Positions 14,861 through 31,408 of a DNA stretch of 35,477 nucleotides are shown piece after piece. Position numbers and translations under genes: made by a program. Source of the DNA: Candidatus Woesearchaeota archaeon (GTDB lineage Archaea > Nanobdellota > Nanobdellia > Woesearchaeales > UBA10216); the NCBI GenBank assembly GCA_018303115.1, contig JAGVYT010000029.1, forward strand, positions 1 to 35,477, read 5' to 3'. The first letter of the stretch is position 1, and each line of letters starts with the position of its first letter. The notes under the pieces were generated by a model, which saw nothing but the letters and a program-made list of their open reading frames with translations, did no database searches and was not told the origin of the DNA.

Positions 14861-14956
14861 CGGACCCGCAGGGATTTTCGCTTTGTTTCGAACCCTGGAC
14901 CTAAAGCTTTCTTTCGCTAGAAGGCTTTCGCTCTGTCCAAGCTGAGCTACGAGTCC
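14861..14956 (-). tRNA. tRNA-Arg (TCT) with two small insertions/introns (anticodon loop, 9 nt; T-loop, 12 nt)
   Basis: All stems pair: GGACTCG/CGGGTCC, GCTC/GAGC, AAAGC/GCTTT, CAGGG/CCCTG; anticodon loop is 16 nt (CTTCTAGCGAAAGAAA), T-loop 19 nt (TTCGAAACAAAGCGAAAAT). Confidence 0.82.
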
Positions 14957-27830: not shown

Positions 27831-28405
27831 CTTTTTTTCAACTCAGCGTAAAACGCTTCTTTAAACGCGCCTCTAGCCCTTTCCTTAAAAGTGTTTATAG
27901 CTTCTTTACGCCTTCTGCTGACAGGGTTATCGACGCGTTCAGTAACATAATTCAACACGATATAAGCCACGCCACCGGTTGCCACGCCTGCAGCAGAGCC
28001 CACAGCAAGGTTGCTAAATTCTGCAACAGCCGCTAAAAAGCTTAGGGCAACAAACGCCGGAACTGCTAATACCCGGAATACCTGGACAAAATTTGAGTTA
28101 AACACTCTTTGGCTCAAAGTGCCGCTTTGCTCTGCTTCTGCGTAGCTTCGCAAAAACTCAGGCGCAAGCTCAATTGCCTTCCTTTTCAATGCTTCCGTGC
28201 CGTAAGCATATCCTTGGCTCATTGGCACATATTTCATGGCTCCATTTTCCCTTTCCATCCAGAATTGATTAAAAACGATGTAGCCTATCCATTTCTCGCC
28301 ACCAGCCCGCCCTTCCTTGAGTAGTCTATCAACAAGATTATTTGTGTAAGTTTCTACAGCCGAGAGCGTTAGCAGGCCTAGTACATTGTCAATCGTGCTT
28401 GTCAT
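27827..28405 (-). CDS. Hypothetical membrane protein (192 aa)
   Basis: Hydrophobic segments VFRVLAVPAFVALSFLAAVAEF and AGVATGGVAYIVLNYV; 4-nt overlap with upstream YchF-like gene. Confidence 0.65.
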   Translation of the reverse strand: MTSTIDNVLGLLTLSAVETYTNNLVDRLLKEGRAGGEKWIGYIVFNQFWMERENGAMKYVPMSQGYAYGTEALKRKAIELAPEFLRSYAEAEQSGTLSQRVFNSNFVQVFRVLAVPAFVALSFLAAVAEFSNLAVGSAAGVATGGVAYIVLNYVTERVDNPVSRRRKEAINTFKERARGAFKEAFYAELKKS

Positions 28406-29601
28406 TTTCTGCTTATAATTTCCACTACATCCCTGTTTTTCAGGGCATAATCCCTGCCAACTGTTTTCCTCGTCCTGACGTCAATGGCCCTGATAAAGCC
28501 CTCGCCGAGGTCTGTGTGCAGCCTGAAAGCGAAATCCACTGCCGTCGAGTTTTCCGGCATTAAGATGCAGTCCGGCAGAACGCGTCCGTGCTGGTCTGCA
28601 AGCTTATTCACGCCGCCGGGAAATACTGCCACGCACTTCAGAAGGTCAAACACGGCCTTGTTCAGGCAGTCCTGAACGCCTGTATTGCCGTGCTTTTTCA
28701 GAACGTTTTCATCAATGAATTCAAGCGCCTTCCTCTGCTTAGGCGAGAGCTTTCCGCCCTCTTTTATCGTAAAGCTGCTGTCACCCGGAATGTATTCAAT
28801 TAAATTTTCCCTGGCAGCTTCCCTTAAGGCAAGCTCTGATTCTGCGCTGCACGGCACTATCATATGCCCTTTGAACTCTTCCTGCATTTTCTTTATATTG
28901 GCGGCAGCAGTGTCCAAGTCGGCCTTGTTCGCAGCTATGATTATCTGCTTTGTTGCCCTTCTAAGCTCAACTGCAAAATTTTGCAAATCCCTCTCTGACC
29001 ACTTAAGCGGATTTTCCGGGTTAAGCCCAAGCCCTGCAATTATGCTTTTTACAATCTCAGTGTTGGCGTTTAAGCCGGAGAACTGGTCTGCTATTGCGTC
29101 CTCAACCTTGTGGCGCTCCATGTAGGTCTGCTTTGCGAATTTCTCCCACGGCTTTTTAAGTATGGCCAGGTACCACAGGTCAAGCTCGGTTTCCAGGAAG
29201 CGCACGTCATCAGAAGGGTTATGGCTGCCTGCATCCACAGGCTTGCCGTTCTCGTCAGTGCTGCCGGAAGCGTCCACAACGTGAACCAGCGCGTTAGCCT
29301 GCCTTAAATCGTCAAGAAACTGGTTGCCCAGCCCCTTTCCCTGGTGAGCGCCCGGAACCAGGCCTGCCACGTCAAGAAACTCCACGGGGACAAAGCGGTT
29401 CCCACTGATGCAGAACCCTTCCCTGGGATTGCACTTAACATTTAATTCGCGGTCAACGCAGCTTACTCTGACGTAGGCAGCGCCCCTGTTCGGCTTTATG
29501 GTTGTAAAAGGGTAAGAGGCTATCTCCACCTCTGCAAGAGTGGATGCCTTGAAAAAGGTGCTTTTCCCCGAAGATGGCTTGCCAACAATGCCTACTAGCA
29601 T
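28402..29601 (-). CDS. YchF/Obg-family redox-regulated ATPase/GTPase
   Basis: 399 aa; GIVGKPSSGKSTFF, DVAGLVPGAHQGKGLGNQFLDDLRQA, ANKADLD, C-terminal TGS-like domain. Confidence 0.94.
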   Translation of the reverse strand: MLVGIVGKPSSGKSTFFKASTLAEVEIASYPFTTIKPNRGAAYVRVSCVDRELNVKCNPREGFCISGNRFVPVEFLDVAGLVPGAHQGKGLGNQFLDDLRQANALVHVVDASGSTDENGKPVDAGSHNPSDDVRFLETELDLWYLAILKKPWEKFAKQTYMERHKVEDAIADQFSGLNANTEIVKSIIAGLGLNPENPLKWSERDLQNFAVELRRATKQIIIAANKADLDTAAANIKKMQEEFKGHMIVPCSAESELALREAARENLIEYIPGDSSFTIKEGGKLSPKQRKALEFIDENVLKKHGNTGVQDCLNKAVFDLLKCVAVFPGGVNKLADQHGRVLPDCILMPENSTAVDFAFRLHTDLGEGFIRAIDVRTRKTVGRDYALKNRDVVEIISRK

Positions 29602-29696
29602 GCTGTTGGAGGGTTTTACCGCTTTTTTAATACTTATTGCTGTGACGGCGGCCCATTCCCCCGAAAAAATTATAAACAGCCTAAAAATTTACTGTT

Positions 29697-29873
29697 GTGA
29701 AGAAAATGGCGACTTTTTTTGCGATGTTAAGCGGTGTTGGCATTCTGGTCGGCCTGTTCTTAATATCCCAGGGGCTTTGGGGGGACGGTGTAGGGGCCTT
29801 TTTGGCATTGACCATAGGCGTTTTTGTGACTTTCAAGGAAATCATGGACATGTTCTTTGCCGGCGGGCCGTGA
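29697..29873 (+). CDS. Small membrane protein (about 58 aa)
   Basis: VKKMATFFAMLSGVGILVGLFLISQGLWGDGVGAFLALTIGVFVTFKEIMDMFFAGGP; TATA-like aaaattataaac upstream. Confidence 0.6.
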   Translation: MKKMATFFAMLSGVGILVGLFLISQGLWGDGVGAFLALTIGVFVTFKEIMDMFFAGGP

Positions 29874-29915
29874 GATTCCGTATTCTAACGGGTTTGGACG
29901 CAAAGTGAACGTAAA

Positions 29916-30527
29916 CTAAGTTGCTTGTTTTGTAACTAATACGAACCAAGGCTGGAATCCCTTAAAAATACTAATTTCTGCTCCTTCGTAGAAGTCAATT
30001 GATTTTATGTGCTCTCTAAACTCGCTTTCGTAACTTGGTTCCAGAAGATGTGGTGAGTACTGAATGAATTTTGATTCTGACTTTATTTCTATTATCAAAC
30101 CCCCATCTGGAAGAGTTACTTCTGGGCACTTTTTTTTGATAAAATCTATAAGTACAGTTACACCAGTTCTTTGCCTAGCCCCTTTAAAGCTTTCTAATTT
30201 TTGACTCTCAAAATCAACAATTTTTCGTCCATCTGGTAATTTAATGTGAAAATTACCACTCGCATGAGCCGATGCTTTCATTCCTGATTTATCAAAAAGA
30301 TTGCCAAAATAAATATCTCCATTCTTACCCTGTTTAAACCAAAACACAGCCCAGTATTTATTCTCATCTTTTATGAATATTTTATGTGTTCTGGGTTTAC
30401 TCATCTTTCCTCCATGAATGCTGGTTTTACGTCGTGGCTTAATAAAGCTTCTGCTAGTGCTGTACTGGTTAATCTTTGGGTGGTAAATTGTGGGTGTTAA
30501 AGGTTCGATGATTTTTGATGTTGTCAT
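29916..30527 (-). CDS. Hypothetical protein (203 aa), cargo of the TIR-bounded island
   Basis: ORF start overlaps the stop of the upstream 34-aa ORF (ATGA); no recognised family. Confidence 0.65.
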   Translation of the reverse strand: MTTSKIIEPLTPTIYHPKINQYSTSRSFIKPRRKTSIHGGKMSKPRTHKIFIKDENKYWAVFWFKQGKNGDIYFGNLFDKSGMKASAHASGNFHIKLPDGRKIVDFESQKLESFKGARQRTGVTVLIDFIKKKCPEVTLPDGGLIIEIKSESKFIQYSPHLLEPSYESEFREHIKSIDFYEGAEISIFKGFQPWFVLVTKQAT

Positions 30528-30628
30528 ATTCCTTTATGTTTTAACCATATGTAAATAAACAAGGCAACTACAAGAAATACGAAAAAAGTTGCAAGTAATA
30601 TCCAATTAAACTGGGCTTTTTTGCTCAT
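30524..30628 (-). CDS. Small single-TM peptide (34 aa), cargo of the island
   Basis: MSKKAQFNWILLATFFVFLVVALFIYIWLKHKGI; overlaps the 203-aa gene by ATGA; not in ORF track. Confidence 0.55.
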   Translation of the reverse strand: MSKKAQFNWILLATFFVFLVVALFIYIWLKHKGI

Positions 30629-30814
30629 ATCTTATCAATATGAGCGGATATAACAGGAAGTTTTAAAACTTTCCTTTACACGTCCAAACTTAGTCGGCTT
30701 TGCCCGAGAAGTGACTAGTTCTCTGCTTAACAAGACTTTACGACCAAAACAGGGGTTTACGTCCAAACCCCGTTCTAACGAAAACTTTATAAAATTAGGT
30801 TATACATAAAGCGT

Positions 30815-31408
30815 ATGCCAGTATACATAAGAATTCCTTCTTTGGATGTTGTTTACAGGGATGTTTGGGTTATGCAGCCACTTTACAGAGTGACAAGGTT
30901 CTGGCTCGTGGAAAACGACTATGTGGATGCAAAAGGCGACAGCAGCATGGAATCTGCCATGGAGGTTCTTTATCATTTCAGAAGGGGCACGTCAATGAGC
31001 CCTAACGAGAAGGAGCTGAGGATATGGTGGAGGACTGTCCAGAACCCGATTGCGGGGGGCAGGGCGGGAAGCAAGTTCTACAAGCACCACATAGACATAG
31101 ACTGGAATGTCATACAAATGTATGACATTGAAATAATGAAGGAGGGGAAGAAAGAGACTGTCCAGAAAGGGGAGCTTAGAATCAATATCAGGCCATACAT
31201 TGAGATGCCTGACATGTCTGCTGTCCCCCTGCTGAAATTTTTTGACAACTGGTTCAGGACAAGGCTGCTGAAAAAAAACCTTGAGGAAAACAAGAAAATG
31301 CTTTACCAGGATGCATACAGGCTTCAGGGGATGCTAAAGAAGTATCTCGAGCTAAAGACATTCACCCCAGAGTTTGAGAACCTGCACGAGAAGTTTGAGT
31401 TTGTATGA
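30815..31408 (+). CDS. Conserved hypothetical protein (197 aa)
   Basis: ORF with TATA actttataaaat about 25 nt upstream (leaderless layout). Confidence 0.7.
   Translation: MPVYIRIPSLDVVYRDVWVMQPLYRVTRFWLVENDYVDAKGDSSMESAMEVLYHFRRGTSMSPNEKELRIWWRTVQNPIAGGRAGSKFYKHHIDIDWNVIQMYDIEIMKEGKKETVQKGELRINIRPYIEMPDMSAVPLLKFFDNWFRTRLLKKNLEENKKMLYQDAYRLQGMLKKYLELKTFTPEFENLHEKFEFV

Follow-up and report, generated by a model that had tools for sequence, protein, structure and literature searches.

An 882-bp island in a 35,477-nt stretch of Candidatus Woesearchaeota contig JAGVYT010000029.1 (GCA_018303115.1), the whole of which is referred to here as the window, is a real insertion, and we consider it, with a probability of about 0.8, to be a mobile insertion cassette (MIC), a kind of non-autonomous transposable element. 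Such cassettes, known from bacteria, are defined by terminal repeats, a target-site duplication, a passenger coding sequence and the lack of a transposase gene (PMC3913671, PMC5444012). The island has two inverted repeats, a duplication with a corresponding empty site in a related genome and a passenger coding sequence, and contains no known transposase (Table 1).

Table 1 Features of the insertion and of its surroundings in the window.
Feature	Position	Strand	Length	Details
Element (mobile-insertion-cassette-like)	29891–30772		882 bp	Absent from relatives' locus; GC 0.358; single copy
Left target-site duplication copy	29883–29890			TTCTAACG
Right target-site duplication copy	30773–30780			TTCTAACG, exact match to left copy
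Left terminal inverted repeat	29890–29904	+		GGGTTTGGACGCAAA; first G common to duplication
Right terminal inverted repeat	30756–30772	-		Read inwards, CGGGGTTTGGACGTAAA
Subterminal repeat	30739–30752	-		About GTTTTGGTCGTAAA; CGACCAAAAC at ~30742–30751
Subterminal repeat	30680–30689	-		GTTTGGACGT; CGTCCAAAC at 30681–30689
Cargo ORF	29916–30404	-	162 aa	ATG preceded by GGAGGAAAG; start by homologue colinearity
Cargo ORF, longer form	29916–30527	-	203 aa	ATG overlaps stop of small ORF (ATGA)
Small ORF	30524–30628	-	34 aa	MSKKAQFNWILLATFFVFLVVALFIYIWLKHKGI; one likely membrane span, by inspection
Possible archaeal promoter of cargo	30660–30680	-		GGAAAGTTTTAAAA; inferred, ~35–45 nt upstream of small ORF
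YchF/YGR210-like GTPase, left syntenic anchor	28402–29601	-		
Hydrophobic ORF upstream of element	29706–29873	+	55 aa	Present in G001 at 64% identity
Conserved downstream gene	30815–31408	+	197 aa	No Pfam family
BRE/TATA-like core promoter of downstream gene	30779–30795	+		CGAAAACTTTATAAAAT; inferred from sequence

Borders of the insertion and its empty site

All pairs of 8-base direct repeats lying 200–3000 bp apart in the window (n = 2865) were compared at their inner borders, and only one pair (29883/30773) has inverted borders matching at 14 of 15 bases (GGGTTTGGACGCAAA/TTTACGTCCAAACCC, 29890–29904 against 30756–30770), with the next best pairs reaching 12. Thirty versions of the window generated by a first-order Markov model each had a best inverted match of 11–13, with none at 14/15. 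An 882-bp island with an 8-bp TTCTAACG duplication and inverted termini, as reported in the initial annotation, is thereby confirmed at 29883–30780, with borders that are unmatched elsewhere in the window. The terminal match as first described holds when extended to 14/15, but its shorter version is insufficient alone: under a looser criterion of an 8-bp repeat plus a shared 10-mer, the chance expectation is ~0.27 per window, or about one in four windows, so that 8 + 10 bases make a weak case, and the extended match together with the empty site must carry it. This chance rate, together with the fact that the ends are not present anywhere else, would favour chance repeats around an ordinary lineage-specific intergenic gene gain, such as one caused by illegitimate recombination. 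We regard that explanation as very unlikely, given that none of the 30 shuffled versions reaches 14/15 and that comparison with a related genome (G001, described below) independently places the borders near these repeats.

The inverted pair that had been placed just inside the repeat is thus real, although its two ends are asymmetric: the left end begins GGTTTGGACG and the right end CGGGGTTTGGACG, with the right end extending three bases further when measured from the 8-bp repeat. The ends would be symmetric under a possible alternative, an 11-bp duplication CCGTTCTAACG whose left copy has gained two bases (CCGTATTCTAACG). In full, the left end of the element reads GGTTTGGACGCAAAGTGAAC and the right end, read inwards, CGGGGTTTGGACGTAAACCCCTGTTTTGGTCGTAAAG. 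The further subterminal copies of the terminal motif that had been described are also present at the two positions listed in Table 1, where GTTTTGGTCGTAAA and GTTTGGACGTG form near-copies of the motif inward of the right end, as would be expected of transposase-binding sites. The right terminal repeat and the bases following it could form a hairpin (GGGGTTT-GGACGT-AAACCCC); folding of this end is unconvincing (z −1.1 and −2.3), and no Rfam match to a structured RNA was found in the element. Elsewhere in the window, a 96-nt Rfam tRNA match on the minus strand (14861–14956, 44.6 bits), not reported by ARAGORN, adjoins tRNA-Cys and possibly contains an intron or an extended variable arm.

The search for an empty site in syntenic genomes, proposed alongside the original description of the island, was successful in G001 (locus L014), which is of the same genus and represents another species (~71% DNA identity) rather than a same-species strain. 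In this genome, the GTPase, the 55-aa ORF, the downstream gene and an LPG_synthase_TM-family gene are colinear with the window and the island is absent, with a spacing of ~300 bp at the position of ~1.2 kb in the window genome, and with ~45 bp (versus 941 bp in the window) separating the stop codon of the 55-aa ORF from the start of the downstream gene. In G001, the empty site contains a single stretch, AGCTTACG, related to the duplication TTCTAACG. With the island removed and one TTCTAACG retained, the window reads ...TGAGATTCCGTATTCTAACGAAAACTTTATAAAATTAGG, the G001 counterpart being TGAGACAGCTTACGAAATCTTTATATATTCAGA, and this alignment places the border of the island at the repeat. Neither the island nor the 55-aa ORF is present in G002, other loci having both anchor genes show short spacers and no island, and the island was not carried by any relative examined.

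Placement of the island between the stop codon of a small protein and the promoter of the next gene was likewise borne out, as the 55-aa ORF ends at 29873 and the predicted core promoter of the downstream gene, which is aligned to CGAAATCTTTATATATT at the G001 empty site, begins in the last bases of the right duplication and is unharmed by the insertion. The downstream gene was found in 28 of the 30 genomes searched and forms a head-to-head pair with the YchF-like GTPase in most compared loci reaching far enough. The 55-aa ORF was not found in compared loci other than G001, and may encode a small membrane protein that is young or evolving fast. Similar BRE/TATA-like sequences precede the 55-aa ORF (29662–29676, CGAAAAAATTATAAA) and the downstream gene (30779–30793, CGAAAACTTTATAAA), both on the plus strand. 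The interior of the element is more A+T-rich than its flanks, in agreement with the initial annotation (GC 0.358, versus 0.463 and 0.447 for the left and right flanks), and GC3 of the main cargo ORF is 0.264 versus 0.60 in both neighbouring genes, giving the element a foreign-looking composition.

The cargo protein and its homologue

Two forms of the main cargo ORF can be read, and the ATG at 30404, which is preceded by GGAGGAAAG and matches the start of the homologue, is the more likely start, while the first 41 codons of the 203-aa form are probably unused. A protein-like reading in another frame, HPQFTTQRLTSTALAEALLSHDVKPAFMEER (30404–30496, minus strand), ends at the ribosome-binding site of the cargo and is perhaps a relic of another small cassette gene.

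Searches of Pfam, PHROG, PADLOC and NCBIfam returned no match to the 162-aa protein at a meaningful E-value. The protein is therefore not a known transposase, consistent with the earlier reading that the island contains no recognisable one. Its only homologue, retrieved by single-sequence search (E = 4.5e-5), is a 172-aa protein from a Candidatus Woesearchaeota genome (G149, L053:1483–2001; JAGVYE010000002.1), which shares 30% identity with the cargo and aligns over almost its whole length; a pair-alignment search of 362 genomes of the order recovered these two family members only. The homologue has a tight 3' neighbour, sits between unrelated genes and is not flanked by comparable terminal repeats. 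Its occurrence outside an island indicates that the gene is independent of the ends, which does not make the ends meaningless. A further pair-alignment match (E = 0.0015), which contains an internal stop, was rejected. Matches attributed to chance are a weak match (G050/L012) in a gene that appears by eye to be DUF58-like and lies next to a MoxR-type ATPase, one within a SUF-like cluster gene with an internal stop (L073) and one near the start of a gene read by eye as IS110-like (L002). No homologues were found in phages, plasmids or viral contigs, and comparison with the sequences of solved structures retrieved nothing.

Structure prediction, also proposed at the outset for the cargo, yielded low-confidence AlphaFold models (pLDDT 62 and 54), of which the former is strand-rich, and fold searches gave no reliable match, with none to the PDB and none to a transposase. 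A viral model (A0A8A5LJB3) was retrieved with an E-value of 4.6e-4 but a TM score of 0.37, and was not relied on. The 162-aa ORF is the only sizeable one between the ends, its product is without a known domain and its homologue stands alone between unrelated genes in another archaeon of the order, all of which would suit a small unrecognised transposase or accessory protein and, consequently, an autonomous element. We consider such autonomy highly improbable, as the homologue is without comparable flanking ends, the element is single-copy, the family has two members only in the genomes searched, unlike transposases, and the strand-rich model (low confidence, pLDDT 62) matches no transposase. 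A foreign cassette that encodes a membrane peptide and a soluble protein would fit a toxin-antitoxin or anti-virus pair, although this is a guess. It would likewise be a long shot to propose an undescribed minimal transposition module to which the 162-aa protein belongs, with or without the 34-aa peptide, or a new host-conflict gene spreading by cassette among woesearchaea.

Searches for a partner and relation to known elements

A DNA search with the whole element revealed a single copy in its own genome, the assembly of which is 96% complete. The search for its termini in the genome and relatives, as suggested in the initial annotation, produced no further pair: with one mismatch allowed, 40 genomes gave seven other matches, approximately equal to the reversed-pattern control; of the occurrences of the 8-mer of the ends in its own genome, only the element's own copies extend; an exact search with 13 bases across 362 of the order's genomes gave seven single matches, each lacking an inverted partner; and viral contigs gave 107 single matches, none with a partner and a duplication. 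The absence of further termini makes the element an orphan and leaves non-autonomous as the best reading. Transposases of the IS1595, ISL3, IS256 and IS6 families were not found in its own genome. The order-wide transposase search covered 144–238 genomes and these same four families; comparable duplications are also made by further families, such as IS1, IS66 and ISH6. Within the order, IS1595, ISL3 and IS256 transposases are present in few genomes and those of IS6/IS240 type occur most often among the four (23 of 144 genomes), and none of the transposase loci fetched bears the element's ends, with one mismatch over 11 bases allowed. No insertion sequence with ends matching the element, as expected of the trans partner of a MIC, was thus found in its own genome, the order or viral contigs, and with a single copy and no other element bearing these ends, the partner transposase cannot be named.

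The element shares inverted repeats, a duplication, a passenger and the lack of a transposase with MIC231 of Bacillus cereus and with the qnrS2 and qnrD cassettes. MIC231 is moved in trans by the transposase of IS231A (PMC3913671), whereas no such partner of the woesearchaeal element was found in its genome or order, and the two differ in host, a woesearchaeal archaeon as opposed to B. cereus. MICs carry coding sequence, unlike MITEs (PMC5444012), which are known from archaea (Sulfolobus, Halobacterium and others; PMC10969869). Archaeal MITEs are similarly non-autonomous, with terminal repeats and a duplication, but MITEs lack coding sequence and are usually multicopy, whereas the present element is mostly coding; a MITE identity was rejected on this coding sequence (a 162-aa ORF conserved with its homologue) and on the single copy. 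Transporter IS (tIS) also carry genes unrelated to transposition (PMC3129680, PMC7986276), but they keep a transposase gene, which this element is without.

Members of the IS6 family produce 8-bp duplications, are mostly 700–890 bp long and carry ends with a tip of GG and the motifs cTGTt and caaa, in which TGT is invariant (PMC7986276). The element resembles these and their MITEs in its 8-bp duplication, GG tips, similar length and the CAAA in its left end, and a narrower version of the MIC reading would make it an IS6-family derivative in which the cargo took the place of the transposase gene and the ends diverged over time. In addition to the duplication (also readable as 11 bp) and the length of 882 bp, this derivation is favoured by the left end GGTTTGGACGCAAA, sharing 8 of 14 bases with GGCACTGTTGCAAA, which we take to be the IS26 end, by the prevalence of IS6/IS240-type transposases in the order and by the ends GGGCAAAGTCAACT of two elements of the order (L211 and L216), which resemble the inner left end GCAAAGTGAAC. 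However, the fully conserved TGT core reads GGA at both ends, and on this test the element is not filed under IS6. Moreover, CAAA is replaced by TAAA at the right end, which lies three bases off the repeat and makes the ends asymmetric; the coding sequence is unrelated, no IS6-type transposase (PF13610) is present inside the element or in its own genome and the L211 and L216 elements apparently make 9-bp duplications. We therefore treat descent from IS6 as a tentative and rather unlikely refinement of the MIC reading.

The two elements of the order used in this comparison (L211:1436–2376 and L216:1015–1946) are insertion sequences of ~930–940 bp with IS240/IS6-type DDE domains and ends GGCAAAGTCAACT, and are flanked by exact 9-bp direct repeats of the form C(N7)G (CTTTTTCAG, CATTATTAG), versus the 8 bp of the IS6 family, or by 7-bp repeats if the ends start at GGG. 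A further stretch of 2.7 kb around an IS6-type transposase domain (L219:584–3276) has ends GGTTCTGGTGC and an 8-bp repeat TGAAACGG; it is long for IS6 and possibly includes extra genes.

Proposed route of insertion and significance

Inverted ends, a duplication of fixed length and a clean empty site are the traces of a DDE transposase. As a MIC, the element would consist of inverted repeats recognisable by a DDE-type transposase enclosing passenger genes where the transposase gene would otherwise lie. The enzyme, provided in trans from an insertion sequence no longer seen in the genome or from a donor, would bind the repeats and excise or copy the element, which would then be joined to staggered cuts 8 bp apart (or 9–11) just ahead of the core promoter that serves the gene at 30815, with repair of the stagger duplicating TTCTAACG. 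The insertion broke no gene and spared that predicted promoter, and the cargo is probably transcribed from its own minus-strand promoter. Since no transposase lies inside the element and its termini occur once in the genome, the enzyme may have acted in trans and now be gone, may be encoded in the missing 4% of the assembly, or the element may have been transferred in.

Our analysis confirms a real, single, orphan, passenger-carrying non-autonomous element of known kind. The original suggestion of a mobile element that carries its own cargo and is either non-autonomous or novel is thus supported, with non-autonomous as the better description, while a novel transposition system is unsupported. 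In the part of the literature that we covered, we found no MIC reported from DPANN archaea, to which Woesearchaeota belong. Apart from its isolation and its cargo, the element is of an ordinary kind; it is a cassette with a passenger that entered a DPANN archaeon in one clean event, for which an empty site is known, its cargo founds a two-member protein family and its ends (GGGTTTGGACG) provide an exact probe for the missing transposase.
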